Position numbers and translations under genes: made by a program
Shown here: positions 5,815 to 51,891 of the stretch, in pieces
Numbering within the stretch: the first letter of the stretch is position 1
How the letters are laid out: each line of letters opens with the position of its first letter
Notes under the pieces: generated by a model
Databases searched by the model: none
Seen by the model: only the letters and a program-made list of their open reading frames with translations
What the model was told of the DNA's origin: nothing
Assembly (NCBI RefSeq): GCF_029910235.1
Contig: NZ_CP112874.1
Span: 1,054,001 to 1,118,000 of the forward strand
From: Pseudanabaena galeata CCNP1313
Lineage (GTDB): Bacteria > Cyanobacteriota > Cyanobacteriia > Pseudanabaenales > Pseudanabaenaceae
DNA: 64,000 nucleotides
Reading direction: 5' to 3'

Positions 5815-6648
5815 ATGAGTATTGATGCAGAGCGATCGCTGTTAAATAGTCTCCATGCCTATGTAAACCGTTTTGACACCTCGAATTCCCCTGAAGAGAT
5901 CCTAGCGATCGCAAGTTCAATTTTCACCTTTCAACAAAAACAAGGAAGTAGCATCAAGATCGAGTCTAATCAAGCTGAAGCTTTAATTCAGCATGTAGTC
6001 AATCAGTTTCAATCAGAACCTCTATCTTCTGTTACTGATGCAACTACTGACACATTGGCACAAGAAGTAAACCAATGGAGGCATTCTTTAGAAGATCAAG
6101 TACTCAATACCCTTAAAGCCTATGCGCGGAAGGTTCATCCCAATCAAATCCAGAATTTACTGCCAGAGACAATTTTATCTATTCTCCCATTAGTTGAGAA
6201 TGCCCAACTGCGTAAATCAGAAGCTGAATCTCTAATTCGGCAGATAGAATCAAAATTTAATTGGAATAGCGCATTAGCGCAAGTAATTGATCCTAAATTC
6301 TTAGCGATCGCTGACAAATTGGTACAGTTATCAAAGTTTGGCGACTTAAAGAATTTACTACAAGATTCTCTCTTAGGAAATCGCGACCTCATCAATAACA
6401 CTCTTGAGAATGTAACCGAATCTTTTGTAGAACGTGAACTAGCTAAAATTCTTGGCAGTAATAATACCTTGCATATGGATATCGACGTTGATGCTCAGAA
6501 ACTAATGGTTAAGCAGGTAACGCTAAAGCTTAATGTTTTGCATTCTTCGGCAATACCTTCAAAGAGTAATGAGGAAATTGCTACCCAAATGGATGCCGAA
6601 ATTGATCGTTTCAAAGCATCTCGACTACTTCCATTTCGTTTGTTTTAA
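5815..6648 (+). CDS. Hypothetical soluble helical protein
   Basis: I do not recognise a family. The 277-residue product is hydrophilic and rich in predicted helix, without signal peptide, membrane segment or cysteine. ATG 5815 is preferred over the overlapping TTG at 5812. The stop codon TAA (6646-6648) takes its last two bases from the end of the MITE inserted at 6647, so the ancestral protein may have been longer or had another ending. The last residues are LPFRLF. Confidence 0.65.
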   Translation: MSIDAERSLLNSLHAYVNRFDTSNSPEEILAIASSIFTFQQKQGSSIKIESNQAEALIQHVVNQFQSEPLSSVTDATTDTLAQEVNQWRHSLEDQVLNTLKAYARKVHPNQIQNLLPETILSILPLVENAQLRKSEAESLIRQIESKFNWNSALAQVIDPKFLAIADKLVQLSKFGDLKNLLQDSLLGNRDLINNTLENVTESFVERELAKILGSNNTLHMDIDVDAQKLMVKQVTLKLNVLHSSAIPSKSNEEIATQMDAEIDRFKASRLLPFRLF

Positions 6649-6759
6649 CGTGAGTTCGATATAGCCATTTGCGGATTGCTTCGCACGTCGCAAATGGCAA
6701 AAAATGGTAAGAATCGCTAAGCGATTCTTACCATTTCTCGCTTTCGTCGAACTGACGTT
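6647..6759 (+). mobile_element. IS982-type MITE, full-length copy A (113 bp)
   Basis: The left end is AACGTGAGTTCGATATAG and the right end is CTTTCGTCGAACTGACGTT, matching the right and left terminal repeats of the IS982-type element at 11551-12555. Two internal hairpins lie between. Its length is identical to copies at 50478 and 51779. The flanks GTTTT and GTGTT form only an imperfect direct repeat. The left end supplies the stop codon of the gene at 5815. Confidence 0.85.
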
Positions 6760-6771
6760 GTGTTAGCATTC

Positions 6772-6918
6772 ACAGCACTTTGCCCTCAAAACTAAACCAA
6801 GGAAGGAAAACGTTGAAAGCTTTACAAAGCTTTCAACGTTTTCCTTAAAGCTCGTTTGAAAATACTGTTCCGCTTGCAAAGTTGGCGGAACAATCTCAAG
6901 CTTTTGGAAACTGCTGCT
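6772..6918. repeat. ACAGC/CAAAC-ended element, variant copy
   Basis: It starts ACAGCACTTTGCCCTCAAAA, has a 44-base palindrome at 6803-6846 (AAGGAAAACGTTGAAAGC arms), then GCTCGTTTGA and ends near CTGCTGC. It matches elements at 53706 and 62264 but has about 45 extra bases near its right end. Together with the MITE it fills the 305-base gap between the hypothetical gene and ppsA. Confidence 0.7.
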
Positions 6919-6953
6919 AAAAAAATAGAATAGTGCCTCTTAGTGTCACTTTT

Positions 6954-9389
6954 TTATTTTTTTGCGAGTTCGAGCATTGTCTTCAAGACAGAATCAGGAT
7001 TGAGGCTGATCGAGTCAATGCCTTGCTCGACAAGGAACTTAGCAAACTCAGGATAATCGCTCGGAGCTTGACCACAAATGCCAATCTTGCGATGATTTGC
7101 CTTAGCCTTTTGAATCACCGTGCGAACCATGGACTTAACTGCTTCATTGCGCTCATCGAAAATATGGGCAACAAGGGCAGAATCACGATCTAACCCAAGA
7201 GTCAACTGAGTGAGGTCATTGGAGCCGATGGAGAAGCCATCAAAGACCTGTGAAAACTCATCCGCTAAGATAACGTTACTAGGGATTTCGCACATCACAT
7301 AGACTTCCAAACCATTTTCACCACGCTTCAAGCCATGTTTTTCCATCTCTGCAAGCACCTTTCGACCTTCTTCAGGAGTGCGACAGAAAGGAATCATCGG
7401 AATCACGTTGGTTAAGCCCATGTCATCGCGGACGCGCTTGAGGGCTTGACATTCTAAACCGTAGGCTTCGCGATATTTAGGATCGTAGTAGCGGGATGCG
7501 CCACGCCATCCGATCATCGGGTTTTCTTCGGTGGGTTCAAAGGCGCGACCACCGAGCAGATTAGCGTACTCATTGCTCTTGAAGTCAGACATCCGCACGA
7601 CAACGGGCTTGGGATAAAATGCAGCGGCGATCGTGCCGATACCATGCGCCAGCTTATCTACAAAGAAATCAGCCTTGTTTTCATAGCGTGCTGTCAGTTG
7701 CGAGATTTCCCATTTTGCGGCTTTGTCTTCGAGGGTGTCGAAGTTCATCAGGGCGAGAGGATGCGCTTTGATGTGGTTGGCAATGATAAATTCCATACGC
7801 GCTAAGCCAACGCCATCGCAGGGAATGGAAGATAATCCAAATGCTTCTTCGGGGTTGCCCACGTTCATCAAGATTTTGGTGGAGAGTTTGGGTAAATTAT
7901 CAAGGGAAGTTTCGATTATTTCAAAGGAAACTAGCCCTGAATAGACTTTACCTTCTTCTCCTTCAGCACAGGAGATGGTGACTTCTTGTCCAGTTTTGAT
8001 CAAGCCTGTAGCATTTCCGCAGCCAACGATCGCAGGAATACCCATCTCTCTTGCAATGATCGCCGCGTGGCAGGTGCGTCCACCTTGATTGGTGACGATC
8101 GCACTAGCCTTCTTCATGATTGGTTCCCAGTCTGGGTCAGTCTTATTGGTGACTAGCACTTGCCCTGCTTGGAAATCATCAATATTGTGAACTTCTAGAA
8201 TCACATTGGCGCTACCTTGACCGATCATTTCGCCTACAGCACGACCTGTAATCAAGATTTCACTAGAGCCATTTAGTTTGTAGTTCTTGAGAATGTTGCC
8301 TGACTTTTGCGACTGAACGGTTTCGGGACGGGCTTGAACGATAAACAATTCGCCAGTTTTACCATCCTTAGCCCATTCAATGTCCATCGGTGATAGTTTA
8401 CCGCGTACTTCTGAATAGTGATCTTCAATAATGCAAGCCCATTCTGCGAGTTTGAGAATTTCGTCATCGGTAATTGCAAACTTGACTCGTTCGGAAACGG
8501 GGACAGGAATATTCTTGGTCAGCTTACCGCCGCCAATGTCATAGACCATCTTGATTTCCTTTGTCCCGAGACGTTTTTCGAGAATAGGACGGAAGCCTTG
8601 TTTGAGAGTTGGTTTGAAAACAAAATACTCATCGGGATTGACTGCACCCTGCACCACGTTCTCACCCAAACCATAAGCTGCCGTGATTAACGCTGCATTT
8701 TTGAAGCCTGTCTCGGTGTCGATGGAGAACATTACTCCAGAGGAGGCGAGGTCAGAACGTACCATCTTTTGTACGCCGACGGAGAGCGCGATATCGAAAT
8801 GATCGAAGCCGTTGATGGTGCGGTAGGAAATGGCGCGATCAGTGAATAGTGAGGCAAAGCAGCGATGGCAAGCATCGACAACTTCATTCGCACCATAAAC
8901 ATTGAGATAGGTTTCCTGTTGTCCCGCGAAACTGGCATCAGGCAAGTCTTCGGCGGTAGCACTGGAACGGACAGCCACATCAGTATCTTCTTCTGAACCG
9001 TAGAGACTGCATAGTTTTTTGTAGGACATGGCGATCGCCATTTGCAGATCGTCAGGAAATGGCGTGCTGAGCATCAAGGCTCTTGCCATTCGACCGCGAT
9101 CGCGCAGGTTATTCATGTCCTCAATATTGAGACCGACGAAGAGTTCGCGCAGTTTTGCTTCTAATCCAGCCTTCTCAATAAAATAACGGAATGCATAGGC
9201 TGTAGTCGCAAATCCATTAGGAACATTTACTCCTTTAGGTTGTAGTAGCTGAATCATCTCTCCCAACGAAGCATTTTTTCCACCCACAAGGGGAATGTCA
9301 GCAATTCCCACTTCTTCAAACCAAAGTATTAAAGCCTGCTCTTTAGGAACATTTCTAGATGTTTCCGAGGCAAAAATTGAGCTAGTCAT
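6954..9389 (-). CDS. ppsA: Phosphoenolpyruvate synthase (pyruvate, water dikinase)
   Basis: The 811-residue protein has the full three-domain layout. The N-terminal ATP-grasp part contains LVGGKNASLGEM (34-45) and RSSATAEDLPDASFAGQQE (141-159). The swivelling phosphohistidine domain has GGRTCHAAIIAREMG with catalytic His441. The C-terminal PEP-binding barrel ends with GICGQAPSDYPEFA. The enzyme makes phosphoenolpyruvate from pyruvate, ATP and water for gluconeogenic flux. It is monocistronic, with mutM over 240 bases upstream on the same strand. The 245-base leader 9390-9634 is AT-rich and shows no clear feature. Confidence 0.95.
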   Translation of the reverse strand: MTSSIFASETSRNVPKEQALILWFEEVGIADIPLVGGKNASLGEMIQLLQPKGVNVPNGFATTAYAFRYFIEKAGLEAKLRELFVGLNIEDMNNLRDRGRMARALMLSTPFPDDLQMAIAMSYKKLCSLYGSEEDTDVAVRSSATAEDLPDASFAGQQETYLNVYGANEVVDACHRCFASLFTDRAISYRTINGFDHFDIALSVGVQKMVRSDLASSGVMFSIDTETGFKNAALITAAYGLGENVVQGAVNPDEYFVFKPTLKQGFRPILEKRLGTKEIKMVYDIGGGKLTKNIPVPVSERVKFAITDDEILKLAEWACIIEDHYSEVRGKLSPMDIEWAKDGKTGELFIVQARPETVQSQKSGNILKNYKLNGSSEILITGRAVGEMIGQGSANVILEVHNIDDFQAGQVLVTNKTDPDWEPIMKKASAIVTNQGGRTCHAAIIAREMGIPAIVGCGNATGLIKTGQEVTISCAEGEEGKVYSGLVSFEIIETSLDNLPKLSTKILMNVGNPEEAFGLSSIPCDGVGLARMEFIIANHIKAHPLALMNFDTLEDKAAKWEISQLTARYENKADFFVDKLAHGIGTIAAAFYPKPVVVRMSDFKSNEYANLLGGRAFEPTEENPMIGWRGASRYYDPKYREAYGLECQALKRVRDDMGLTNVIPMIPFCRTPEEGRKVLAEMEKHGLKRGENGLEVYVMCEIPSNVILADEFSQVFDGFSIGSNDLTQLTLGLDRDSALVAHIFDERNEAVKSMVRTVIQKAKANHRKIGICGQAPSDYPEFAKFLVEQGIDSISLNPDSVLKTMLELAKK

Positions 9390-9634
9390 GATGATTTAAC
9401 TCCCTAACCAAATTAACGATTAGATCAGTGCATGGATCGTATTTGAAACCTTAAATCTTAATCAATATAATTTCGATAATTTATCGAAGCATAAGTTTTG
9501 CTGTCAAAGCTTTATATTTGGTATAGACAACTTATTGAAAGCCTTGATACTTCATAATTATAGCGACTATGAAAGCACTATATTTGTAAGGCATTACATT
9601 TATTCACTAAGCTTCGCAAAGATTGACATTCTCG

Positions 9635-10504
9635 CTATAAGCTCTGACATTGGGTGCAAAAGTGTGTCGATCGCCCTCCCAGCTTGATCCGTGAAATTAC
9701 TGTGCCACAGATATTACAAGGCTGTCCAGTACGTCGAAACACCCAAGCCGTATCAATATAGTTTCCCTTTAAACCTGCTACATTTTGAAAAGAACTAAAA
9801 GTTGTTCCACCCTTGGCAATGCCGTCGCTAAGAGAACGAATAATTCCTTGATGTAAAGCTTTGACCTGTTCTGAATTTAGAGAATTTGCTGCTTTTTGAG
9901 GATGGATTTTACCAAGAAATAACGATTCATCAGCATAGATATTTCCAATCCCAGCAACGATTTCTTGATCAAGTAACACCGTTTTAATTGGGCGACCACT
10001 ACGACTTAGCTTTACCCCCAAATGCTCTGGTGTAAACTCAATATCAAAAGGTTCCAAACCTAACTTTTGCAAACCTGTAATAATCGATTCTGTAGCTGTA
10101 TTCGATGGAACCCCCCAAAGTTTGCCAAAAGTCCTCTGATCGTCAAACCGTAACTCCTTCAATCCCCTGTTTTTTCCCTTTTTCCTTTTTCCTTTTTCCT
10201 TTAAAAACAATCTCACCCTTGTATGTTTACCCACAGCCGTATCGCGATCGCACCAAAGCAAGCTCCCCGTCATCCGTAAATGCACCCCTAATTGATGTCC
10301 CTGTGAAAGTTGTGCGATTAAATATTTCCCTCGGCGCTGCCACTCGATAAACTCTGCCCCAATCAAAGCATCTAAAAAAGCCTGTGGCTGATCAGGATAG
10401 GCGATCGCACGGGGCAGCAATACCTCACCGCCTTCAATCAGCCAGCCTAGTGTATTTTCATTTAAACCGATACGGACTGTCTCAACTTCTGGTAATTCGG
10501 GCAT
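9635..10504 (-). CDS. mutM: Formamidopyrimidine-DNA glycosylase (Fpg/MutM)
   Basis: The start at 10504 gives the required N-terminus PELPEVE after Met removal, with Pro2 as the catalytic nucleophile. The 289-residue protein has the Fpg N-terminal domain, the helix-two-turn-helix segment with a KTVLLDQEIVAGIGNIYADE motif (read in parts), and a C-terminal zinc finger (CNIC...CTQC). It removes 8-oxoguanine and other oxidised bases, which matters in a photosynthetic cell. A lysine-rich stretch, KEKGKRKKGKNRG, near residue 117 is encoded by CCTTTTT heptamers at 10177-10202. A second heptamer tract (AGTAAAA) lies just upstream of the start. Both are unusual for this gene. Confidence 0.92.
   Translation of the reverse strand: MPELPEVETVRIGLNENTLGWLIEGGEVLLPRAIAYPDQPQAFLDALIGAEFIEWQRRGKYLIAQLSQGHQLGVHLRMTGSLLWCDRDTAVGKHTRVRLFLKEKGKRKKGKNRGLKELRFDDQRTFGKLWGVPSNTATESIITGLQKLGLEPFDIEFTPEHLGVKLSRSGRPIKTVLLDQEIVAGIGNIYADESLFLGKIHPQKAANSLNSEQVKALHQGIIRSLSDGIAKGGTTFSSFQNVAGLKGNYIDTAWVFRRTGQPCNICGTVISRIKLGGRSTHFCTQCQSL
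10177..10202. repeat. CCTTTTT heptanucleotide repeat inside mutM
   Basis: Three full CCTTTTT units and a partial fourth lie in the coding sequence. Heptamer short tandem repeats are a known class in cyanobacteria. Since seven is not a multiple of three, gain or loss of one unit would shift the mutM frame. Confidence 0.85.
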
Positions 10505-10510
10505 TTGGCA

Positions 10511-10531
10511 AGTAAAAAGTAAAAAGTAAAA
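10511..10531. repeat. AGTAAAA heptanucleotide repeat in the mutM leader
   Basis: Three tandem AGTAAAA units end seven bases before the mutM start codon, where a ribosome binding site would be expected. No Shine-Dalgarno sequence is visible, so unit number could alter translation. Confidence 0.8.
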
Positions 10532-10549
10532 AATAGTTTTCAGATCCAT

Positions 10550-10588
10550 AAAAAGAAGAAGGGGCGCAAAGCGTCCCTTCTTCTTTTT
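10550..10588. terminator. Hairpin between psaE and mutM
   Basis: AAAAAGAAGAAGGGGCGC pairs with the opposite arm around AAA, with one mismatch, and ends in five T residues on either strand. It lies just past the psaE stop and probably ends that transcript. Confidence 0.65.
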
Positions 10589-10608
10589 GGGTTTTGAGTT
10601 AGAAGAAT

Positions 10609-10800
10609 CTAGGCGACTTCTTCGACTTCATCGATCGCAAAGTTGTTAGTTGCGATATTGGAGTAGTTTACGCTGTCGAAACGAACGATCACTGGGTAAA
10701 TGATGCCGCTCTTATCAACGGAAGCCACAGTACCGACTTCGCGATACCAGTAAGACTCTTTACGCAAAATGCGAACCTTAGAACCACGTGCAACTGCCAT
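10609..10800 (-). CDS. psaE: Photosystem I reaction centre subunit IV (PsaE)
   Basis: The 63-residue sequence matches PsaE over its whole length: [19 protein letters not shown] at the start, then [10 protein letters not shown] and [11 protein letters not shown]. PsaE is a small SH3-like barrel on the cytoplasmic face of photosystem I that helps dock ferredoxin and supports cyclic electron flow. An AAGGAT Shine-Dalgarno-like sequence lies before the ATG. It is monocistronic, bounded by a hairpin at 10550-10588. The upstream region 10801-10920 contains a short GC-rich inverted repeat (GAGGCG/CGCCTC). Confidence 0.97.
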
Positions 10801-10923
10801 AGTTTTATCCTTATTCCTAAAGACTGTAATGTGAAAAATAAAATGATTACAGATATCTCCTCTAGGTTACTGCGAGGCGCTCGCCTCTGTCTATTTCTAG
10901 CTCGTTAAGTTTTATTTAGCAAA

Positions 10924-11433
10924 TTAACGCACGACCACAGGTGTACCCACAGAAGCCCATCGGTAAAGCCAAGCCGCATGATCAGGCGCAACATTCGTAC
11001 AGCCACGACTGATCGGAATCCCAAAGCTACGATGCCAATATGCCCCATGAATAGCATAATGTCCACTGTAGTACATCACATGGGGAACATCAGGTATGTT
11101 GTAGTCTTCGCCTTGCATTCTCGCTGTAGGGTATTTAGTTTGAACGTTAAAAATACCTTTAGGGGTAGGTGTAGCACTTTTGCCAGTAGATACAACTACT
11201 GCATAAACGAGTCGATTGCCTTGCCATGCTAATAGGCGCTGACTACGCAGGCGAATTTCAATCCAGCGTTGCCCTGAGCGCCTTAGACGTTCAATGTCTT
11301 GATCGCGGACAGAGCGCGATGATGTTTGCGCGATCGCCACATCTAAATTAATTAAGTTAATCCAACCACCAGATCCCAACAGAAATAAAGTGGTTACTAG
11401 GACACTGGATAGAGTTTGCCAATACTTAAACAT
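10924..11433 (-). CDS. L,D-transpeptidase (YkuD family), exported
   Basis: The start at 11433 gives a normal signal peptide (MFKYWQTLSSVLVTTLFLLG). The mature protein is a single YkuD domain with the catalytic motif HGAYWHRSFGIPISRGCTN, in which Cys145 is the nucleophile. Such enzymes form 3-3 peptidoglycan cross-links or attach proteins to peptidoglycan. The protein has 169 residues and no LysM or peptidoglycan-binding domain. The longer frame from 11502 places 23 polar residues before the signal and is unlikely. Confidence 0.88.
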   Translation of the reverse strand: MFKYWQTLSSVLVTTLFLLGSGGWINLINLDVAIAQTSSRSVRDQDIERLRRSGQRWIEIRLRSQRLLAWQGNRLVYAVVVSTGKSATPTPKGIFNVQTKYPTARMQGEDYNIPDVPHVMYYSGHYAIHGAYWHRSFGIPISRGCTNVAPDHAAWLYRWASVGTPVVVR

Positions 11434-11550
11434 TTTGATTGCAAGTTGATTGCAAGGTTGCTTATCAGCAATTATGCCCAAAATTTGAGTTAAATATACC
11501 AAAATACGTTATTTGTATCTGCCATCTATCTCCTATAGCAATCCTAACCA

Positions 11551-12555
11551 AACGTCAGTTCGACGGAGTAGACAAAAGCAAAAGAAAAGCTGAGACTAGG
11601 TTTGACAAACTAAAAGCCTCAGCAATATGAACAGTATCGTATCGCACTTGGATATCACGCGAATCTTCTGTGAAGTGGATGATTTTTGCCAAAGCTTTGA
11701 AAAACACTGGCAAGAGCAACCAATGTTGCCATCAATGCAGGGAGAAAGGAAAAGTCGCTCAAGAATGAGGTTGAGTGAAGTGATGACCATCGCGATCGCC
11801 TTTCATGGGTCAGGATACAAGACCTTCAAAGACTTCTATACCCTAACTGTAATACCGTTTTGGCGGAAAGCATTTCCCCACTTGGTAAGCTACACCCGCT
11901 TTGTCGAGCTAATGCCTTGGACAATGATGTTGTTATGTTGCTTTCTGCATACCCGCAAAGGCGAAGTGACAGGAATATCATTCATCGACTCCACACCGAT
12001 CAATGTCTGTGTACCATGCCGTGCCCATGCCCATAAAGTATTCAAAGGTATGGTCAATTGGGGCAAAAACTCAGTGGGATGGCACTTTGGCTTCAAGCTA
12101 CATTTGATTATCAATGACAAAGGGGAATTGCTTGCCTTCAAGCTCACACCAGCCAATATTGATGACCGACAACCTGTGCCTGAGATGGCTCAAGACCTCT
12201 TTGGTCAATTGTTTGGTGACCGTGGTTATATCTCCCAAAAGTTGTTTGAGAAGCTCTATGAACAAGGTTTACAACTGATTACTAAGCGCAAGAAAAATAT
12301 GAAAAACTGTTTGGTCAAGTTGATTGATAAGATTTTGCTGCGTAAGCGCGCAATTATTGAGTCCGTCAATGACCAACTCAAAAACATTTCTCAGATTGAG
12401 CATTCAAGACATCGCAGTTTTTTTAATTTTCTTGTCAACCTTTTAGCTGGGTTGGTTGCTTATACATATCGAGAGACTAAACCTGCTTTAGATCTTCTCT
12501 TCAAAGGCTTGCCTGCTCTTCCTCCTGCCATCTTTTAGTGCGTCGAACTCACGTT
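11551..12555 (+). mobile_element. IS982-type insertion sequence
   Basis: The element is 1,005 bp with terminal repeats AACGTCAGTTCGACG (left) and CGTCGAACTCACGTT (right), 14 of 15 matching when inverted. It contains one transposase gene with an intact reading frame. The flanks AACCA and AAATT do not form a direct repeat, so this copy may have recombined since insertion. Its ends are the same as those of the 113-base MITEs in this window. Confidence 0.9.
11627..12538 (+). CDS. IS982 family transposase
   Basis: The 303-residue protein matches the IS982 DDE transposases: an N-terminal helical segment, then GISFIDSTPINVC with the first catalytic Asp, FGFKLHLIINDKGELLAF, and FGDRGYISQKLFEKL with the second Asp. 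The final acidic residue is probably in the segment RAIIESVNDQLKNISQIEHSRHRS. The gene is uninterrupted and could be active. Ends matching the non-coding MITEs suggest that this protein, or a relative elsewhere in the genome, moves them. Confidence 0.9.
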   Translation: MNSIVSHLDITRIFCEVDDFCQSFEKHWQEQPMLPSMQGERKSRSRMRLSEVMTIAIAFHGSGYKTFKDFYTLTVIPFWRKAFPHLVSYTRFVELMPWTMMLLCCFLHTRKGEVTGISFIDSTPINVCVPCRAHAHKVFKGMVNWGKNSVGWHFGFKLHLIINDKGELLAFKLTPANIDDRQPVPEMAQDLFGQLFGDRGYISQKLFEKLYEQGLQLITKRKKNMKNCLVKLIDKILLRKRAIIESVNDQLKNISQIEHSRHRSFFNFLVNLLAGLVAYTYRETKPALDLLFKGLPALPPAIF

Positions 12556-12651
12556 AAATTACTATTGGGATTAAAGATATAGTTGCAAAAATCTGATACA
12601 TTTGGCTTAATCTGAAAAATATTTTTAGGATCAGCGTCTGAGGTTGATGCC

Positions 12652-13500
12652 ATGACTCAAAATCCACTAGTTGAACAAGCCAAACAAGGTAACGTTAATG
12701 CGATCGCCTCGCTCATGAATCGATTGCTTAAGTCTCAAGCAATGTTGGCAAACGTTGAGCGTGATGGCGATCGCTTAGAAATTTTGATTGAGTCGGATTT
12801 GCGATCGCTAGACGATGAGATGCGAATTCCTAATCGGCAAGTGCTAGTGGGAATGCTCAAAAAATGGTTCATCACCCTTGAAGTAAAAACAGTTTCTCGG
12901 ATCACCGTGTCTTGGCAACAAACAGGATTTGATGAACCTGCATGGACAGAGGAAATTTACTTAGTTGAGCAGGAATCTCTGAATATTAGGGAAAATGGCG
13001 GAATCACTGAGACTAAACAAAGTCCTAGAATACCTCCTTTACCAGTATTCCCACCCAAATCTATGCTAGAGCGAAATGATCCCAGCGATCGCGCCAATAG
13101 AGAAACAAATTCCGTAGCATCTAGTCCCGATCTAGATGAAATGTTTGGAGAAACTAGTGTTCCCAAACAATTGCCAAATCTTAGTTCCACTAACTATCCC
13201 AATTCTGATTTAGATAATACGCGAACCTCTCAAGATTCAGAGTTACTATTTCTTTCTGATATCCCTGTAATTCCTGACTCCGAAGAAATCAGAGGTTCTC
13301 AAACTGAGGAGCAAACCTTCGCAAATAAAATTTCTTGGCAAGCTTTAATTAAAACCCCAATTTTTGCAATCCAATTTGCTCAATATTTAGTTGTTTGTGT
13401 GATTATTATTGCCACCTTGAGAGGAATTCATGCAGTCTTTGGCGGTAGCAAGGCTCCTAAAACTACATCTATGACACCCCAATTGGTGCATTATAGGTAG
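12652..13500 (+). CDS. Membrane-anchored hypothetical protein
   Basis: I do not recognise a named family. The N-terminal 100 residues are folded-looking (NAIASLMNRLLKSQAMLANVERDG, then IPNRQVLVGMLKKWF). They are followed by a low-complexity linker rich in S, P, D and N, and a single membrane segment near residues 238-258 (YLVVCVIIIATLRGI). The tail is short and basic. This suggests a cytosolic N-terminal domain tethered to a membrane. A purine-rich sequence and ATG at 12652 give a plausible start. It follows the IS982-type element and precedes a repeat. Confidence 0.6.
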   Translation: MTQNPLVEQAKQGNVNAIASLMNRLLKSQAMLANVERDGDRLEILIESDLRSLDDEMRIPNRQVLVGMLKKWFITLEVKTVSRITVSWQQTGFDEPAWTEEIYLVEQESLNIRENGGITETKQSPRIPPLPVFPPKSMLERNDPSDRANRETNSVASSPDLDEMFGETSVPKQLPNLSSTNYPNSDLDNTRTSQDSELLFLSDIPVIPDSEEIRGSQTEEQTFANKISWQALIKTPIFAIQFAQYLVVCVIIIATLRGIHAVFGGSKAPKTTSMTPQLVHYR

Positions 13501-31283: not shown

Positions 31284-31336
31284 AACTCACGTTAAATGAA
31301 TGCGGCGCAAAGCGCCGCATTCATTTAACGTGAGTT
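31284..31336. repeat. Palindrome bounded by IS982-type ends
   Basis: AACTCACGTT, then a palindrome ATGAATGCGGCGC-AAA-GCGCCGCATTCAT, then AACGTGAGTT. The outer ends are those of the IS982-type MITEs while the inside has the GGCGC core, so the two repeat classes are combined here. It shares its right end with the next element. Confidence 0.75.
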
Positions 31337-31395
31337 CGATATCGCCATTTGCGGCGTGCCAAGCACGACGCAAATGGCGATATCGAACTCACGTT
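31327..31395. mobile_element. Short palindromic IS982-type MITE (69 bp)
   Basis: It begins AACGTGAGTTCGATATCGCC and ends with the complement of the same sequence, a near-perfect 69-base palindrome. It corresponds to two copies of the left end of the 113-base MITE joined head to head around the GCGGCGTGC hairpin. Together with the flanking palindromes it fills the 368-base gap between pebA and glyQ. Confidence 0.8.
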
Positions 31396-31430
31396 CATTT
31401 ATTTGGGTTTTGAATTGCTATAGCAATACT

Positions 31431-43152: not shown

Positions 43153-46059
43153 ATGGCAACAAATACAACAACTAAGCAAGTTTGGCACACTTTAACGATT
43201 GATGAGGCGATCGCGGCTTTGGATACAAATCCAGAGTTGGGGCTAGAGTCTTGGCAAGTAAGCGATCGCCAAGCTATCTATGGGCGTAATGAGTTAACTG
43301 GCAAAGCGGGACGCTCCAAGCTAAGTATTTTTGTCGATCAGTTCACCAACATCATGTTGCTGATGCTGATGGGTGTGGCGGTAGTTTCAGCAGGATTAGA
43401 TTTGCGGGTGGGTAATTTTCCCAAAGATGCGGTAGCGATCGCGGCGATCGTTATTCTCAATGGCATTTTGGGCTATGTCCAAGAAAGTCGCGCCGAGGAA
43501 GCACTTGCTGCTTTAAAACGGATGGCGGCTCCCAATGTGAGAGTCCTTCGCGAAGGGAAAGTTACGGAAATCCTCTCAGCAGAACTGGTAGTAGGGGATA
43601 TTGTGTTTGTGGATGCAGGGATGCAAGTTGCGGCAGATGGACGCTTATTAGAGGCGATCAAGCTGAAAGTCAGAGAAGGGGCGCTGACGGGAGAATCGCA
43701 AGGTATAAATAAATTTGCCGATCAAGTATTTCATGAAGACGAATCCTTGGGTGATCGCCGCAATATGCTCTTTCAGGGGACTGAGGTATTGCAAGGACGC
43801 GGGATGATGCTGGTCACATCGATAGGAATGCAAACGGAATTAGGCAAGATTGCCAATCTCCTGCAAGATGTGGAATTGGAAGAAACTCCCTTACAAAGAC
43901 GCATGACCGAACTTTCTAAGGCTTTGGTAGTTGCCTCTTTGGTGCTAGTAGCGATCGTAATTAGCATAGGGCTATGGCGCAATGGTGACTTTGTGAAGTT
44001 GCTCAATACATCCTTAAGCATGGCGGTTGCCGCAGTTCCTGAAGGTTTGCCTGCGGTAATTACAGTAACTCTAGCCCTTGGAACTCAGAGAATGGTGCGC
44101 CGTAATGCACTGATTCGGAAATTGCCTGCGGTGGAAACCCTTGGTTCGGTGACCATGATTTGTTCCGATAAAACAGGAACGCTGACCCAAAATAAAATGG
44201 TAGCCGAAAATATTTTTACTACAAATTATGCTGCCCAAATCAATGGAACTGGCTATGAACCAATTGGCGAATTTTCGCTTTCCCGACTCGCAGGAGACAT
44301 GCTGGCTAGCGATCTCAGCATTTATCAATGTGCAGAATTACAGCTTTTACTAGCGTCAGGTGTAATTTGCAATGACTCCTATCTCCAAAGCAAAACTACC
44401 AATGAGATCAGCAGAACAAGGGGCTTAAGCCCCTTGCCCATTGCTACAAATAGTTCACAGTGGAAAATAATCGGCGATCCTACCGAAGGCGCGTTATTAA
44501 CTTTGGCAGGAAAAGCTAATCTTTGGCAGTCGCACTTTACGCATTATTTCTCAAGAGTTGCGGAGATTCCCTTTACATCTGAGCGGAAAATGATGAGCGC
44601 GATCGCTACCATTAACAGTATGAATGCCGAAGATACACCCGAAGCCCTACGAGCGATCGCGGCACTGTTGCCGAATACACCTTACTTTCTATTTTGCAAA
44701 GGTTCACCAGAGTTAGTTTTAAGTCGCTGCGATCGCATTCAAATCGATAAGCAAATTGGTGTCATTACAACTTCCTATAAAACAGCGATTAACATCCAAA
44801 ACACTCTCCTTGCTTCAAAGGGAATGCGGGTATTAGGATTTGCCTATTTGCCCTTGGAAAAATTACCGACAGAGGAAGAACTCGCCAATATAGAAAATAA
44901 TCTCGTTTGGTTAGGAATAATTGGGATTCGGGACGCGCTCAGGGTTGAAGCGGTGATGGCTGTGCGAACCAGTCGCCAAGCGGGGATTCACACGACGATG
45001 ATTACAGGCGATCATCAACTTACCGCCAAAGCGATCGCTCTTGACTTAAATATTTTTTATCCCGATAGCGATCGCGTTTTAACTGGACAAGAAATTGAGT
45101 TGATGACCGATGATGAACTCACGACTCTCTCTCGACAAACTGCTGTCTATGCCAGAGTTTCCCCTGAGCATAAACTAAGAATCGTCCAAGCATTACAGCG
45201 ATGTGGTGAAGTGGTGGCGATGACTGGGGATGGTGTGAATGATGCCCCTGCACTCAAACAGGCGAATATCGGCATTGCCATGGGAATTACGGGAACAGAT
45301 GTTTCTAAAGAAGCTAGTGACATGATTCTGCTGGATGATAACTACGCGACGATTGTGGCGGCAACTGAGGAAGGACGCACGGTTTACGCGAATATCCGCC
45401 GCTTTATTAAATATATTCTTGGTAGTAATGTCGGTGAAGTGATAGCGATCGCCTCCACTCCATTTCTCGGCGTTAATGCAGTTCCACTCACCCCTTTACA
45501 AATCCTATGGATGAATTTAGTTACGGATGGCGTACCCGCATTAGCTTTAGCTGTGGAGCCATCGGAAGCTGATGTAATGCAAAGACCGCCTTTTAACCCC
45601 CAAGAGAATATTTTTGCAAGGGGATTAGGTTGGTATATCCTGCGAATTGGTGTTGTCTTTGGTTTGCAAACTATTTCCTTAATGGAACTTGTCTACAACT
45701 CTGGTAATCCCTCATGGCAAGAGCATTGGAAAACAATTACATTTACCACTCTCTGTATTGCTCAGATGGGTCATGCCCTCGCCTGTCGTTCTGATTCCAA
45801 ACTGATCATTGAGTTAAATCCTATTTCCAATCCCTATCTATTATTTTCCGTGATTTTTACCACGATCCTGCAACTTGCACTGCTCTACGTGCCAAGCCTA
45901 CGACAATTTTTCGGGACAGATGCTCTTTCGGCTTCAGAGTTGGGCTTATGCTTTGGATTCAGTATGTTGTTGGTTTTGTGGGTGGAATCAGAGAAAATCA
46001 TCCTCAGGTGGTGGAGGAAGTCTCACCCTGCAAAATCCTCTGTAAAACCTCAGTCCTAA
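43153..46059 (+). CDS. P-type cation-transporting ATPase (PacL/Ca2+ type)
   Basis: The protein has about 968 residues (a TTG at 43141 would add four). It has the P-type features: actuator motif LTGES (within [10 protein letters not shown]), phosphorylation site [13 protein letters not shown] near residue 339, and [21 protein letters not shown]-like hinge (as TGDGVNDAP and [10 protein letters not shown]). The N-terminal [14 protein letters not shown] and membrane segments M4/M6 fit the type II Ca2+ pumps such as PacL. A palindrome AAGGGGCTTAAGCCCCTT (44418-44435) inside the nucleotide domain codes for RGLSPLP, a probable repeat insertion. The GTPase gene starts four bases after the stop. Confidence 0.9.
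44418..44435. repeat. Palindrome inside the ATPase gene
   Basis: AAGGGGCTTAAGCCCCTT is a perfect 18-base palindrome. It lies in a poorly conserved loop of the nucleotide-binding domain and keeps the frame. Confidence 0.75.
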
Positions 46060-46063
46060 GCCA

Positions 46064-47596
46064 ATGAAAAGAAAATTTCCTTGGTTGCGATCGCTACTTG
46101 TTTTAGGCTGCTTTGGTCTAGTAATTTCGTTTGTCGTTCCCTTACTAGATCGCATTATTCAAATCTACCAACTTGTCTCCACTTCATCGCCAATCTTAGG
46201 CGGCTTCGTAGTGCTGTTAGTGATGGGAGCATTGGCAGGATTGTTTTTTGTGCTTTGGCGATATCTTAATCTGTTTCAAGCAGAACCATCTGCACCCCGA
46301 CCAATCCCTGAAGTTCCCACCGACAAAATTGAAGCTGCTCAAGATAGTCTCGAAGCTCTAGAGCGTCAAGTTGAGCAGATCCAAGATGAGGTAATGCGGC
46401 GATCGCTTGCTGAGCAAACAGAACAACTCAAAAAGAATTTCATTCGTCAAGAATTGCGTGTGGTAGTGTTTGGAGTTGGCTCCGCAGGTAAGACTTCCTT
46501 AGTGAATGGATTGCTCGATTTAGCACTTCAAGATCCTGAGGTTAGAGGTGAAGTAGGCGCAACTATGGGAACTACACAACTGGGGAAAGTCTATATACCT
46601 GTGAAGTTCCCCAATCTAGATGTACCTGTGCAAATTACTGATTGTCCAGGGATTTTAGAAGCGAGTGCCTTGGGTAGCGATCGCGAACAGGAAGCACGAA
46701 AAATCGCCACAGAAGCAGACTTGATTGTATTTGTGGTCGATGATGACTTACGACGCTCAGAATATGAAGTTCTCAAAGCGCTTACGGAAATCGGCAAACG
46801 AATTGTGCTTGCTTTCAATAAAATTGATCGCCTCACTAAAAGCGATCGCGAAATCATTCAGACTAGTTTGCGATCGCGGGTATTAGACTTGATCGCGCCC
46901 GAAGATGTGGTAGCGATCGCTGCCAATCCTGCCGCAATTACCATCGACTCTGGTGAAGTCGTTACGCCTAAGCCCAAAATTCAACCTTTGCTGGCTCGTA
47001 TGCTCGATATTCTCAGCTATGAAGGCGATGAGCTGGTGGCTGATAATGTGCTATTGCGATCACAAAGGCTAACGGAAGCAACTCGTGAAGCGCTCTCTCA
47101 ACAACAACAAGCAGAAGCCGAAAAAGTAGTTGAGAAGTTCCAATGGTTAGTAGTTGGGGTAGTTTTTGCAACGCCTTTACCAGTGGTCGATCTCCTCGCT
47201 ACAGCCGCAATTAACGCACAAATGGTGGTGGAAATTGGAAAGGTCTATGGTTGCGAAATCAATATTGATCGCGGTAAAGAATTGGCAAATTCGCTCACCC
47301 GCACTCTAGTTAGTCTCGGTATCGTTAAAGGCGTAGTCCAAATCATTACCACAGTCATTTCCGTAACGGTCGTAGGACTAGTTCTCAAGGCGACGATTCA
47401 ATCAGTGACGGCTGCCTATCTCACCCGCATTGCTGGCAAGAGTTTTATCGAATATTTCAGTCGCGATCGCGATTGGGGTGATGGTGGTATCGCGGAAGTG
47501 GTGCAGCGTCAGTTCCAACTAAATCGCCGTGATGAGTTTCTCAAAGTCTTTGTCCAAGATGCTGTCAATCGGGTGATGGTCTTGATGAAGCAATGA
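46064..47596 (+). CDS. Membrane GTPase with DUF697 domain
   Basis: The 510-residue protein has two N-terminal membrane segments (LLVLGCFGLVISFVVPLL and VVLLVMGALAGLFFVLW), then a coiled segment and a GTPase domain: Walker A GVGSAGKTSLVNG (137-149), DCPGILEAS and the base-specificity motif NKID. The C-terminal third (about 345-480) resembles DUF697, seen in YcjF-type and other cyanobacterial GTPases. Its function is not established; membrane organisation or stress response is plausible. It starts four bases after the calcium-type ATPase, so the two are very likely co-transcribed. Confidence 0.85.
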   Translation: MKRKFPWLRSLLVLGCFGLVISFVVPLLDRIIQIYQLVSTSSPILGGFVVLLVMGALAGLFFVLWRYLNLFQAEPSAPRPIPEVPTDKIEAAQDSLEALERQVEQIQDEVMRRSLAEQTEQLKKNFIRQELRVVVFGVGSAGKTSLVNGLLDLALQDPEVRGEVGATMGTTQLGKVYIPVKFPNLDVPVQITDCPGILEASALGSDREQEARKIATEADLIVFVVDDDLRRSEYEVLKALTEIGKRIVLAFNKIDRLTKSDREIIQTSLRSRVLDLIAPEDVVAIAANPAAITIDSGEVVTPKPKIQPLLARMLDILSYEGDELVADNVLLRSQRLTEATREALSQQQQAEAEKVVEKFQWLVVGVVFATPLPVVDLLATAAINAQMVVEIGKVYGCEINIDRGKELANSLTRTLVSLGIVKGVVQIITTVISVTVVGLVLKATIQSVTAAYLTRIAGKSFIEYFSRDRDWGDGGIAEVVQRQFQLNRRDEFLKVFVQDAVNRVMVLMKQ

Positions 47597-47646
47597 TAAA
47601 CAAGAAAAGAGACAAAATTATTTTTACCTTCTTTTGAAAGCAGAAT

Positions 47647-48480
47647 GTGAGTTACATGAACAGTAGTATCAATCCAATTCAGAAAATAGGGCATTTAATG
47701 CGAACAGATCCCGAAGGGTATCTAATTAATGAATGTAATTGGGATTCAATTCAATTGCCTTGGTTAAATCTAGTTGAAGCATTAAGAAGTATCTGTATAG
47801 AAACATTAGGCGATCGCTTGCATAGCATTAATTTACGAGGTTCCGTACCGCGTGGACAGGCTATTTTAAATGTTTCCGATTTAGATAGTATTGTGATTAT
47901 TCAAGGAGAAACCTCCCCTGAACTCATAGCAAAAATCACTGATATTGAGATTCAGCTAGAAAAGCCTTATCCCTTTTGTCAGAAGGTCGAGATTATCCCA
48001 ATCAGTTACAGTGAAATGCAACAGCCAAAATCCCATTGGCAAACTGTTTTACAAACACAGGGTTTATGTATTTATGGCGAAGATTTGCGATCGCAGTTTC
48101 CACAGTTTAAACCGAATCTTGATTTGGTTAGTCACGCTTTCCACCTTGAAGAAGATCTTGCCGAAACTCAAATCATGTTGCGTCAAATTCCTGCAAATAG
48201 CACCCATTTGGAATCCATTGTTAAACAGAAATGTCGGTGGATTAATAAACGCATTGTTCGTACTGGATTTGAGTTGGTAATGCAAAAAGAAAATGCCTTT
48301 ACTCGCGATCTTTATCCTTGCTATGAAAGATTTGCACATCATTTTCCCCATCATGCAAGGTTGATGTACAAGGCTTTAGAATTAGCAATTCAACCATCTA
48401 GTAATCGTGACGGTTTATTAATGTTTCTCAGTCATTTTGGTAAATGCTTGGTAAAAGAAGTAAATCAGAACTTACGCTAA
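47647..48480 (+). CDS. Nucleotidyltransferase-domain protein
   Basis: The 277-residue protein has a pol-beta-type minimal nucleotidyltransferase core: LRGSVPRGQAILNVSDLD, with GS at 65-66 and the two Asp residues at 78 and 80. The C-terminal part is helical, with several conserved-looking His and Arg residues and the sequence YERFAHHFPHHARLMYKALE, perhaps HEPN-like. It could modify a nucleotide, RNA or antibiotic. The start is probably GTG 47647, since GAAAG lies six bases upstream; ATG 47656 is an alternative. It overlaps the convergent JmjC gene by four bases. Confidence 0.75.
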   Translation: MSYMNSSINPIQKIGHLMRTDPEGYLINECNWDSIQLPWLNLVEALRSICIETLGDRLHSINLRGSVPRGQAILNVSDLDSIVIIQGETSPELIAKITDIEIQLEKPYPFCQKVEIIPISYSEMQQPKSHWQTVLQTQGLCIYGEDLRSQFPQFKPNLDLVSHAFHLEEDLAETQIMLRQIPANSTHLESIVKQKCRWINKRIVRTGFELVMQKENAFTRDLYPCYERFAHHFPHHARLMYKALELAIQPSSNRDGLLMFLSHFGKCLVKEVNQNLR

Positions 48481-49625
48481 TCTTTGACAAACAAAATACC
48501 TTCTGTTACTAGGCGGGTTAGTAAGGGAACTACATCTGCATCTAAGTCCAAATTAGGTTCCCAATCAGCCATATCCAAAACACTAAAACTAGACTGTTGA
48601 AATAGCTTTTCAAGTAGATTGAGAGACAAGCCTTTGATGGTTATTTGCTTAGAACCAACCGTAACTTGATAATGATTTTCCTCAAAGATGGCGATTTCTA
48701 TACGTTGTGCTGGCAGTAAGACAAACTCAGCCTCTAAACCATGATCAAAAATATTGAATCCTAACTGTGTAGGCAAAGCAAAAGGTGTAATTGGCTGAGT
48801 TTCATTTTGGCAATTAAGCAGATATTTTTGGATGAGATCGGGCTGTTGTAAGTAATCGATTAAACGTTGCTGTTGTACTTTTAAATGCTGTTCTAAATCT
48901 TGATAATTGCCGTTAATGCTCAAAGGTAAGTTCTGTCGCCATTCCGCTTGTTCTTGTAACTCTAACTGTAGCCACTTAAGCCAATCTATCCCCGTAAAAC
49001 AATCAATTCCAACTGTTAAATGGAGTGAAGGACGATCACCTGATATGGCATAATGCCAATGTCCGCGTGGAATATATAGCAGATCTCCTTGCTCTAAAAC
49101 ACATTGCAGATAAGGAGGCTGGTCTGGAGGAAGATGATCAGGCGATCGCGTCTCGGATGTGGGAAAACTTACTGTTTCAGGAAAAATAAACCATTCTTTA
49201 TCCCCATCAATTTGGAGGATTAATACATCATGGGTATCGTAATGGCAGCTAAACCCACGCTGCTGAGCAGGAGAACAATACAGGTTAATCTGGACGCGAT
49301 GCCCAATTTCATGGCATAGATTTCTGGCTAAATCTGCTAATTCTGGAACGCGCTCATCAACTCCATTAATCACTAAAGTTGCCCCCTGTTGCAAATGGTC
49401 ATGCCAATTGCGGCGATCACTCTTAGATAATGAATGCCCATCTAAGGAAAAATGTAGTTTTGATTCATCTAATTGATGAAAGTTAAGCAAATGATTAAGG
49501 GTATGCCAAGAAAAGAGATGAGCGAATTTGTGGCGATCGCTGGCTGGAATATGCACAGCTTGACGAGTCCAATCTTGGCTTAAAAATTGTTCCACTGCGT
49601 AGGGAGCAAGAAGATCTTTGAGCAT
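48477..49625 (-). CDS. JmjC/cupin-type oxygenase
   Basis: The 382-residue protein matches bacterial JmjC cupin_4 proteins: the HxD iron site is CHYDTHD (His128, Asp130), followed by ILQIDGDKEWFIF, and the distal His lies in YIPRGHWHYA (189 or 191). Relatives such as YcfD hydroxylate ribosomal protein residues using Fe(II) and 2-oxoglutarate. The C-terminal 150 residues are less conserved and end with a winged-helix-like segment. It is a single gene, overlapping the nucleotidyltransferase gene tail to tail. Confidence 0.82.
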   Translation of the reverse strand: MLKDLLAPYAVEQFLSQDWTRQAVHIPASDRHKFAHLFSWHTLNHLLNFHQLDESKLHFSLDGHSLSKSDRRNWHDHLQQGATLVINGVDERVPELADLARNLCHEIGHRVQINLYCSPAQQRGFSCHYDTHDVLILQIDGDKEWFIFPETVSFPTSETRSPDHLPPDQPPYLQCVLEQGDLLYIPRGHWHYAISGDRPSLHLTVGIDCFTGIDWLKWLQLELQEQAEWRQNLPLSINGNYQDLEQHLKVQQQRLIDYLQQPDLIQKYLLNCQNETQPITPFALPTQLGFNIFDHGLEAEFVLLPAQRIEIAIFEENHYQVTVGSKQITIKGLSLNLLEKLFQQSSFSVLDMADWEPNLDLDADVVPLLTRLVTEGILFVKD

Positions 49626-49657
49626 ATCTTAATAATTGAAAACTGCTGAGTAATTAC

Positions 49658-49704
49658 AGAAGCATTTTGAAAGCGGCGCTAAGCGCCGCTTTCAAAATGC
49701 TTCT
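49658..49704. repeat. Perfect palindrome with GGCGC core
   Basis: The 22-base arms (AGAAGCATTTTGAAAGCGGC...) pair around TAA. A fragment TCAGCGCAAATTGCTGTATAGC, resembling ends of the element at 62264, follows at 49713. Confidence 0.85.
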
Positions 49705-49747
49705 AGGTTTCAAGTCAGCGCAAATTGCTGTATAGCCTTTTAGCTGC

Positions 49748-50113
49748 TTAACGCCTGATCTGGATGACGCGAATAGGTATTACCTGCACAGGTATACTTC
49801 TGATCACACGATGATGAGTATTGCCAGAGGTTCTCCGATTATCATGATCTTTAACTTGATCATGATCGCGGTCATTGTTACGACGCTTATCATTATTACG
49901 GCGGTTATCGTTGTTGCGCCTGTCATCACTATTGCGATCGGCGACTAAAGTTGGTTTTGAGCTTTGATTTACGTCTACCACTTCAACTTGGATTGATGGG
50001 GAGCGAGGTGATTGATAAGCAATAGATTCGGGAATTACTGCAAAGGCAGCGATCGGTAGAAACAAAGAAGCCTTGACACCTAAAAATAGGCTCATTAGTA
50101 ATTTTGGGTTCAT
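49748..50113 (-). CDS. Small secreted basic protein, Asn/Arg/Asp-rich
   Basis: ATG 50113 has GGAG eight bases upstream and gives a signal peptide (LLMSLFLGVKASLFLPIAAFA). The mature protein of about 95 residues has a low-complexity core with repeated DRRNNDNRRNND-type units, then a valine/isoleucine-rich tail (VQVIPIRVIQIRR). I do not recognise a family. It may be a periplasmic or cell-wall protein of the RcnB-like Arg/Asp-rich kind, but this is a guess. It is preceded by about 230 bases of AT-rich DNA without a clear feature (50114-50341). Confidence 0.6.
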   Translation of the reverse strand: MNPKLLMSLFLGVKASLFLPIAAFAVIPESIAYQSPRSPSIQVEVVDVNQSSKPTLVADRNSDDRRNNDNRRNNDKRRNNDRDHDQVKDHDNRRTSGNTHHRVIRSIPVQVIPIRVIQIRR

Positions 50114-50359
50114 GTTTTTCTCCAAAAAATTAAAGTTTGCCCACTTTTCTGTTAAGTTAAAATTAACAGGCTTGGCAGATCTAGGCATTCTAGACTTAGT
50201 TAAGTTGATTTTGGTTCCCTATATCTTTGTATAGCTAAAGGCTAGTAAATATAGCTGATTTAAAGCATCAAGCTTGTCTGTAATATGTAGCACTTCTCAC
50301 TGGCTCTTATTTCAGAAATTACCGATCAAGCGAACTACAAGTACTTGGGCAAAAAATTA

Positions 50360-50410
50360 CCAAAACCCATAAAGTTACGCCCCGCAGGAGCGTAACTTTA
50401 TGGGTTTTGG
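50360..50410. repeat. Palindrome, 21-base arms
   Basis: CCAAAACCCATAAAGTTACG and its complement flank a CCCGCAGGA centre. The arms resemble those at 3606-3658. Confidence 0.8.
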
Positions 50411-50477
50411 TTTGTAATTAATTACTGATGTTACGTAGAACAAAGATCGCCATACTGTTTCTATATCATCTTAAAAG

Positions 50478-50590
50478 AACGTGAGTTTGATATAGTCGTT
50501 TGCGGCGTGCGAAGCACGCCGCAAATGGCGAAAAATGGTAAGAATCGTTTAGCGATTCTTACCATTTTTCGCTTTCGTCGAACTGACGTT
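50478..50590 (+). mobile_element. IS982-type MITE, full-length copy B (113 bp)
   Basis: Ends AACGTGAGTTTGATATAG and CTTTCGTCGAACTGACGTT. It is exactly 113 bases and is flanked on both sides by AAAAG, a perfect 5-base direct repeat. The inner hairpins are GCGGCGTGC-GAA-GCACGCCGC and AATGGTAAGAATCG/CGATTCTTACCATT. Confidence 0.92.
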
Positions 50591-50595
50591 AAAAG

Positions 50596-50652
50596 AGGAT
50601 TTGGAGACCAAATCCCTCTATATTGGTTGTAGAGGCTTGGTCTCCAAGCCCC
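50596..50652. repeat. GGTCTCC palindrome, second copy
   Basis: GGATTTGGAGACCAAATCC and a GAGGCTTGGTCTCCAAGCC-type arm surround an AT-rich loop. It resembles the element at 16259-16313, with diverged arms. Confidence 0.75.
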
Positions 50653-50703
50653 ATTCTCAGAGTTCCACGTAACATCAGTTAATTATGCCTAGCTACTTAG
50701 TAA

Positions 50704-51675
50704 CTACTGCACAGAAATAAATCCTAATCTTTGGATAATTTGCTGCCCTTGGGGAGAAAGCGCAAACTCAATAAACTGTTTAGATGCAGGGCTGGTGGTC
50801 TTCTTAACCCCTAAAAACAAATTCCGACTAATTGGATATTGCCCAGCTTTGACAGCATTAACATCCGTAGGCAGAACCCCATCGATCGCCACAATTCTGG
50901 CGATTTCTTGCTTTTCTACCTGTGAGACAGTGGCATAACTAATGCCGTTATCGCCAATATCCCGCAAGATTGCTGTCGTTTCATCTTGTTTCCATGTAAT
51001 GAAGTTAGGGCTATCTGGTGAGAAGTTTTGACCAAGTAATACAATATCTTGAAAAGCTTCTCTAGTTCCGCTTGTGATGCCACGATTGATCACTCTAATT
51101 GGTTGGTTTGCGCCTCCAACTTGCGACCAATTAGTGATTTTTCCCTGATAGATATCGCGTACTTGATCTTTGGTTAAATTTCCTTTAAATGGATTATTAA
51201 TACCAACGAATACGGCGATCGCATCTTTCGCGATCGGTACTAATTGGATTCCTGCTTGGGCTTCGGCAGCTTTGAGAGGACGAGAAGTTGCGGCGATCGC
51301 CACATTACCATCGATTAAATTTTTTAATCCCTGATTTGATCCCGTTGGATTGCCATCGGGAATCCCATAGGTAGATGGGATGTTGGGATTAACTTGACTA
51401 TAAGCATTACGCAAATCCTTGACCAAAGCCACCATCGCCGTACTGCCATCGATCGCCAAAATAGTAGGATTGGGCAAAGATGTATCAAGGTTCAAACTCG
51501 TTGTCGGTGTAGGAGTTGTTGTTCCTATGGTTGCTTGTGGGGATGTTTCAGTCGAAGCGGTAGGAGATACTACTGCTGATTTTGGTTGCGAAAAGAACCA
51601 ATACCCACCTCCTGCAATTCCTGCTGTGACTAGCAATGACAATACTAAAACTGTAGTTTCTTTGCCCTGTGACAT
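50704..51675 (-). CDS. PstS-like phosphate-binding protein, membrane anchored
   Basis: The 323-residue protein has an uncleaved-looking N-terminal membrane segment (TVLVLSLLVTAGIAGGGYWF), a Thr/Ser/Pro linker and a PBP-like domain: LAIDGSTAMVALVKDLRNAY-type start, AATSRPLKAAEAQAG, KITNWSQVGGANQPIRV and SGTREAFQDIVL. It resembles phosphate-binding PstS/SphX proteins. The phosphate-transport genes pstCAB are not adjacent, so a signalling or auxiliary binding role is possible. The start is preceded by a short AT-rich stretch with no clear Pho box. Confidence 0.8.
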   Translation of the reverse strand: MSQGKETTVLVLSLLVTAGIAGGGYWFFSQPKSAVVSPTASTETSPQATIGTTTPTPTTSLNLDTSLPNPTILAIDGSTAMVALVKDLRNAYSQVNPNIPSTYGIPDGNPTGSNQGLKNLIDGNVAIAATSRPLKAAEAQAGIQLVPIAKDAIAVFVGINNPFKGNLTKDQVRDIYQGKITNWSQVGGANQPIRVINRGITSGTREAFQDIVLLGQNFSPDSPNFITWKQDETTAILRDIGDNGISYATVSQVEKQEIARIVAIDGVLPTDVNAVKAGQYPISRNLFLGVKKTTSPASKQFIEFALSPQGQQIIQRLGFISVQ

Positions 51676-51778
51676 GCGTATGTTCCTAAAAATCTCTGTA
51701 ATATTGGCTTAACTTTAGCGTAAATTTAGCCGTACCACTGTATCCCAAGGTCAGATCTAGTTTCTGGCAACCCAAGCT

Positions 51779-51891
51779 AACGTGAGTTCAATATAGCCAT
51801 TTGCGGCGTGCTTTGCACGCCGCAAATGGCGGAAAATGGTAAGAATCGCTTAGCGATTCTTACCATTTTCCGCTTTCGTCGAACTGACGTT
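51779..51891 (+). mobile_element. IS982-type MITE, full-length copy C (113 bp)
   Basis: Ends AACGTGAGTTCAATATAG and CTTTCGTCGAACTGACGTT, exactly 113 bases. It is flanked by AAGCT on both sides, a perfect 5-base direct repeat. It lies 38 bases before the ccs1 start codon, so it must overlap that gene's leader or promoter. Confidence 0.92.

Follow-up and report, generated by a model that had tools for sequence, protein, structure and literature searches.

A 111-bp MITE family with IS982-type tips in Pseudanabaena galeata CCNP1313, most likely moved by the resident IS982-type transposase

Three short repeats share a 64,000-nucleotide stretch of the Pseudanabaena galeata CCNP1313 genome (5.84 Mb, 6 contigs) with an IS982-type element. 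They raise the questions of where such a repeat begins and ends, which enzyme moves it, and what accounts for the two hairpins in its interior. The whole stretch analysed is referred to as the window. The reading favoured here, at a probability of roughly 0.92, is that the repeats belong to a 111-bp non-autonomous MITE family with IS982 tips, moved by an IS982 transposase; the proposal that its hairpins invert as DNA is far less certain.

An earlier note on this DNA had described the repeats as elements of 113 bases. The three 113-base stretches are present at the coordinates and with the ends given there, whereas the element itself is 111 bp long with tips 5'-AC...GT-3', the outermost A and T being part of the duplicated target (Table 1). 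In the 113-bp frame, the longest exact repeat was 5 bp in 60 of 107 copies, and these 60 repeats had a T just 5' in 93% and an A just 3' in 92%; the boundaries were therefore moved one base inward, leaving a 111-bp AC...GT element between 7-bp TNNNNNA repeats. The earlier reading, 113 bp with duplications of 5 bp, would agree with the apparent constancy of that frame, in which A and T occupy the outer positions of most copies. However, the outermost base was not the usual A or T in 24 of 161 copies, and in 14 of these the flanking 7-mers matched exactly, odd base included (in the remaining 10 they differed at 2-5 places). The AC tips described for IS982 (PMC7335449) and the single 7-mer held by empty sites in relatives also stand against the longer frame, which is left with next to no probability and was dropped once tip-variant copies had been found with an outer base repeated in the opposite flank.

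The 5-base repeats previously assigned to copies B (AAAAG) and C (AAGCT) do exist, but as the inner part of 7-mers. Copy B lies between exact duplications, TAAAAGA at 50472-50478 and 50590-50596, and copy C between CAAGCTA (51773-51779) and TAAGCTA (51891-51897). The leading C of the former 7-mer is probably a later change, since the left flank of the orthologous copy reads TAAGCTA in both G005 and G012, two genomes counted as close relatives because their matches ranked among the best. Copy A, which had been given no repeat, is flanked by TGTTTTA (6641-6647) and TGTGTTA (6759-6765), identical at 6 of 7 positions. The sequences at 5118 and 57322 had rightly been taken for partial copies, but 31284-31395, regarded as merely a rearranged copy, holds an intact 67-bp palindromic element.

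Table 1. Coordinates of the MITE copies and fragments, their hairpins and the IS982-type element in the window.
Feature	Position	Strand	Remarks
MITE copy A	6648-6758	+	111 bp
MITE copy B	50479-50589	+	111 bp
MITE copy C	51780-51890	+	111 bp
Hairpin 1 of copy C	51796-51830	+	16-bp stem, 3-base loop TTT
Hairpin 2 of copy C	51831-51871	+	19-bp stem, 3-base loop TTA
MITE right-half fragment with G-type tip	5118-5188	-	right half only
MITE first 25 bp	57322-57346	+	then runs into unrelated hairpin
Hairpin-1 fragment without tips	2868-2912	-	
67-bp palindromic short form	31328-31394	+	left end, hairpin 1, inverted left end
IS982-family element	11552-12554	+	1003 bp, tips AC...GT
IS982-family transposase, 303 aa, presumed helper	11627-12538	+	NCBIfam, Pfam

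At least 150 full-length copies of the MITE were found in the genome with a covariance model (all 150 candidates scored were returned). A 13-mer from its end occurred 409 times, compared with once for a reversed-pattern control, and a two-ended pattern occurred 83 times, compared with 0 for the control. The combination of a 111-bp length, high copy number and the tips of a resident IS is that of an IS-derived non-autonomous MITE, and the element was judged non-coding by its length.

For detailed analysis, 161 distinct copies were taken. Exact duplications of 6-9 bp flanked 105 of them, while shuffled flanks gave a mean of 3.6 and a maximum of 9; the other 56 copies lacked such a duplication. 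Duplications of exactly 7 bp were found at 85 copies (3.1 with shuffled flanks), with 8 bp at 11, 9 bp at 3 and 6 bp at 6. The preferred target is TNNNNNA, AT-rich and mostly intergenic. MITE insertions avoid genes: among the 54 copies with flanks long enough to be counted, 2 lay inside an ORF of at least 150 aa, compared with 218 of 300 random window positions, and 16 lay between convergent ORFs. Transposition of IS200/IS605 elements proceeds through single strands without target duplication, and a palindromic element derived from that group was ruled out by the exact duplications at 105 copies. On plasmid ABRG53d (L371) of Pseudanabaena sp. ABRG5-3, a MITE copy was observed a few bases after the psbA gene, at about position 2000, where it could act on the transcript end.

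The outer ends of the MITE are those of the IS982-type element in the window, including the G/C difference between its two ends, as had been noted before. They occur in swapped order, with the left tip identical to the right end of the IS over 12 bp and the right tip to its left end over 14 bp (both read by eye). Assignment of the larger element to the IS982 type also held: its 303-aa protein contains a DDE transposase domain (Pfam) and matches NCBIfam NF033520 at 255.7 bits, above the cut-off of 130, and the element has AC tips, a length of about 1 kb and duplications inside the 2-10 bp of the family. The closest named IS record is from Pseudanabaena mucicola (94%).

The genome contains 17 full-length genes for this transposase, 2 of which were left unscored as their tips were not found. 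The 15 distinct copies scored had duplications of 7 bp (11 copies), 8 bp (2) and 6 bp (1), and the window copy was the only one without a matching duplication (TAACCAA / TAAATTA); it looks as if it had been produced by recombination between two IS copies. In 16 hand-chosen IS982 loci from other records, picked from 80 + 1, both tips were present in 14, and an exact 7-bp duplication was found in 10 of these 14, of which 5 belong to one Nostocales genome and 1 to P. mucicola.

The MITE and the IS thus agree in their tips, in a duplication mode of 7 bp and in preference for TNNNNNA, and mobilisation by the resident IS982-type transposase is most likely. The proposal in the earlier note that IS982 or a related transposase moves the MITE is supported by the tips, by duplications of 6-9 bp (mode 7), by the target preference and by empty sites. 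The transposase would recognise the MITE tips and cut at AC...GT, and insertion into TNNNNNA 7-mers would produce a direct repeat usually of 7 bp (6-9). This explanation is weakened by the extent of the shared sequence, the 12 and 14 bp at the tips being all that the MITE and the IS have in common. An origin by internal deletion of IS982 was rejected, as identity to the IS ends stops, by eye, at those same points.

Empty sites in relatives had been set as the test of transposition, and uninterrupted ones were found at five insertions. At the site of copy C the element is present in G005 and G012; G008 (TAAGATA), G010 and G020 (TGAGATA) lack it, each with a single 7-mer. For a joined-flank search, 18 sites were drawn at random from 78 eligible ones, and 6 loci at 4 sites were aligned. 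Among the matches listed, these 4 further sites were empty in G005 and/or G012, with a single 7-mer in 6 of 6 alignments. In the pair at L071, one base of the 7-mer is substituted and the adjoining hairpin has a 3-base indel; the pairs at L094 differ by a 1-base indel further right of the junction. A high-copy hairpin repeat made up most of the matches listed, and those left unaligned include L209, L018 and a partial G012 match at L084.

Across the 58 genomes searched, the MITE was found in 18 (own included), all of the window's genus, 4 of them scored by one or two weak matches; the Pseudanabaena sp. ABRG5-3 plasmid carries it as well. Within the 26 genomes of the genus, the MITE was present in 18 and a close IS match in 16, the latter being the author's reading of matches with short fragments included, and no significant association between the two was observed (13 with both, 5 with the MITE only, 3 with the IS only, 5 with neither; Fisher p 0.19). 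The draft genome G012 holds about ten MITE copies and only distant IS982 genes, a pattern that would be explained either by loss of the IS or its absence from draft assemblies, or by help from other enzymes. The lack of a significant association and the case of G012 are what chiefly speaks against a simple account with a single helper.

These data bear on the alternative that the MITE is moved by another transposase, one with similar tips, and that the tips of the resident IS982 are alike by descent alone. Such an account would suit the 5 of 18 MITE-bearing genus genomes that lack a close IS982 match by the author's reading, as well as the further short families with related tips in the window's genome. 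It is nevertheless improbable, for tips, duplication length and target preference all match those of the intact resident IS, in a comparison that covers IS982 among the genome's transposases.

The 67-bp palindrome is probably a second mobile form and apparently moves in the same way. The window copy lies between exact duplications, TCATTTA at 31321-31327 and 31395-31401. Five exact-ended copies were found in the genome, with exact 7-bp duplications at 3, one mismatch at 1 and none at 1. Furthermore, tips were found within 60 bp of the 161 MITE copies in 19 cases, with a spacing of exactly 7 bp in 7 and 8 bp in 2; two mismatches were tolerated and some pairs were counted from both sides. At L096, in the window's genome, one 7-mer occurs three times around a MITE and a full IS982, as TAATCAA-MITE-TAATCAA-IS-TAATCAA, indicating that elements can insert into the duplicated target of a resident element.

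Other repeats were observed in the same settings. A second short family, about 140 bp by eye, with tips ACGTGAGTTCGGGATAAGC... and ACCTCAGTTCGGGTTAATTTC..., occurs in the window's genome at L229, L232, L234 and L238 and is sometimes one duplicated target apart from a MITE. Two other dispersed repeats, with many matches in other genomes of the genus, lie at 50339-50424 and 50589-50680, the latter adjoining copy B. Intergenic hairpins unrelated to the MITE are located at 57351-57401 and 31297-31325, and hairpins are also present in several insertion-site flanks.

The interior of the MITE consists of two near-perfect hairpins with stems of 16 and 19 bp. Pairing holds in 98.6% of cells across 86 distinct copies. 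Changes on both sides were counted at 15 pairs, a number reached by 0 of 500 shuffles (shuffled value 3.1), in a statistic in which related sequences can exceed such shuffles. Strong stem covariation would be compensatory if the hairpins were a conserved structured RNA or a bidirectional terminator under selection, and the intergenic placement, including the sites between convergent ORFs and the ABRG5-3 copy after psbA, would fit such a role. This explanation is unlikely, as the orientation of loop 1 is random relative to background, inverted loops or paired changes between species were seen at a few hairpins outside the MITE too, and Rfam returned no family at gathering score for window positions 50300-52000 (copies B and C). 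Rfam matches below that score, mostly to microRNA families, were taken as hairpin artefacts.

Loops were counted in 155 copies, all of standard length; the 6 of other length were dropped. Loop 1 reads TTC in 75, GAA in 55, AAA in 16 and TTT in 9. These four sequences make up two reverse-complement pairs, and the six single-base intermediates that lie between TTC and GAA were all absent from loop 1 of these 155 copies. Copy pairs identical outside the loops had opposite loop-1 orientations in 50% of cases, with a random expectation of 49.6% (n = 318 pairs, of which a single group of 25 copies supplied 300), and both orientations occurred in 8 of 14 identical-background groups. Stem pair 28/42 clearly tracks relatedness, being different in 14.5% of comparisons at distance 0 and in 55% at distances of at least 6; pair 53/93 tracks it weakly (20.5% to 32%) and pair 62/84 does not (24% dropping to 14%). 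Faster flipping of loops, relative to change in the stems, is therefore a limited observation, carried by one or two of the three stem pairs. Loop 2 reads TTA in 118 and TAA in 32 of the 155 copies, with an orientation near random; it provides weaker evidence because it is unbalanced and the two forms are one base apart.

Orthologous sites were also compared, and loop-1 orientation differed at one of three orthologous MITE sites. At the site of copy C, loop 1 is TTT in the window, TTC in G005 and GAA in G012. At site L102, loop 2 differs between orthologues and two stem pairs are changed on both sides, while the third site, seen in just G005 and G012, has the same loop 1 in both. Site C and L188-L195 were one-flank matches in this comparison; site C was separately confirmed on both flanks, and L064/L213 were rejected as orthologues on a one-flank match of 85%. 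Sixteen comparisons of orthologous hairpins yielded 7 identical loops, 2 exact inversions, 4 other changes and 3 indels; with 9.4-15.2 kb covered for each species pair, and few hairpins, they give a hint but no rate. The two exact inversions were MITE copy C and a non-MITE hairpin at 53732-53780 (AAA/TTT relative to G005). Hairpins beside MITE sites L071 and L101 look inverted by eye, with extra changes.

An alternative to inversion in place is that every transposition sets the loop orientation anew, or that gene conversion shuffles it among copies. Either course would leave orientation independent of background across insertions, as observed, and inter-copy conversion predicts the similar independence of stem pair 62/84. 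The difference in orientation between G005 and G012 at the orthologous site C speaks against this account, although gene conversion could still explain that site, as does the inversion of the orthologous non-MITE hairpin; the account is rather unlikely, if somewhat less so than a selected RNA. The likeliest reading, on limited evidence, places the events at the DNA level: the hairpins would invert, and one arm would be copied onto its partner, through template switching or cruciform processing. Inversion of this kind would account for both loop orientation and covariation with no RNA function, and gene conversion between copies could contribute to it, or even replace it, for the MITE. The fuller proposition, that the perfect intergenic hairpins of the genus flip in place and have one arm rewritten from the other often enough to bring loop 1 to equilibrium across the MITE family, with stem covariation produced by mutation and not by RNA selection, is tentative, its odds being below even.

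If the hairpin result holds, DNA-level inversion together with copying between arms can produce covariation, the usual sign of functional RNA structure, and the rate of hairpin inversion could readily be measured in a family of more than 150 copies. Were in-place flipping true, every insertion would be a natural reporter of inversion, and if a dedicated flipping activity exists, the genome would hold well over a hundred tiny invertible segments. Template switching is described as a single mutation event that can restore or rewrite both stem arms and so mimic compensatory change (PMC8794818). That work concerns RNA genes and ancestral reconstruction, whereas the present case would be a multicopy family of bacterial DNA that shows loop inversion.

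Several known systems resemble the Pseudanabaena family in part. MITEAba12 (PMC6382973) is similar in that 90% of its copies are 113 bp long and in its two non-identical tips, each matching an end of a resident IS; it differs in its parent, ISAba12, and its 9-bp duplications, and the available portion of its description does not mention IS982. Nezha is likewise a cyanobacterial MITE whose proposed mover is a resident IS, but its proposed parent is ISNpu3-like (PMC3049150, PMC10969869), a distinction made by description and not by sequence. The IS982 family is described as having AC tips, a length of about 1 kb, a single transposase gene and duplications of 2-10 bp, with 6 bp for ISNsp1 of Nostoc (PMC7335449), whereas the IS studied here has duplications of 6-8 bp in 14 of 15 copies, a mode of 7 and a preference for TNNNNNA. 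The term 'MITE' is absent from the main text of that review, and neither an IS982 MITE from a cyanobacterium nor a report of miniature inverted repeats in Pseudanabaena was found in the open-licence literature searched, the former by titles and the openings of abstracts.

An IS982-derived MITE has already been published, namely MITECca01, related to ISCca4 of Cardinium cOegib (PMC9769881). As described there, it shares with the present family IS982-family ends, copies that outnumber the parent IS, a mostly intergenic location and intact parents in the same genome. MITECca01 is about 240 bp long and retains short stretches beside the ISCca4 ends, in contrast to the 111 bp, the interior unlike the IS and the two hairpins of the Pseudanabaena MITE. 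As a kind, the IS982-linked MITE is already known, and the Pseudanabaena family is a new example. Its host is a free-living cyanobacterium, its boundaries are clean, and both the length of its duplications and its preferred target are defined, with empty sites in relatives, for an IS family in which duplications of 2 to 10 bp are reported (PMC7335449).
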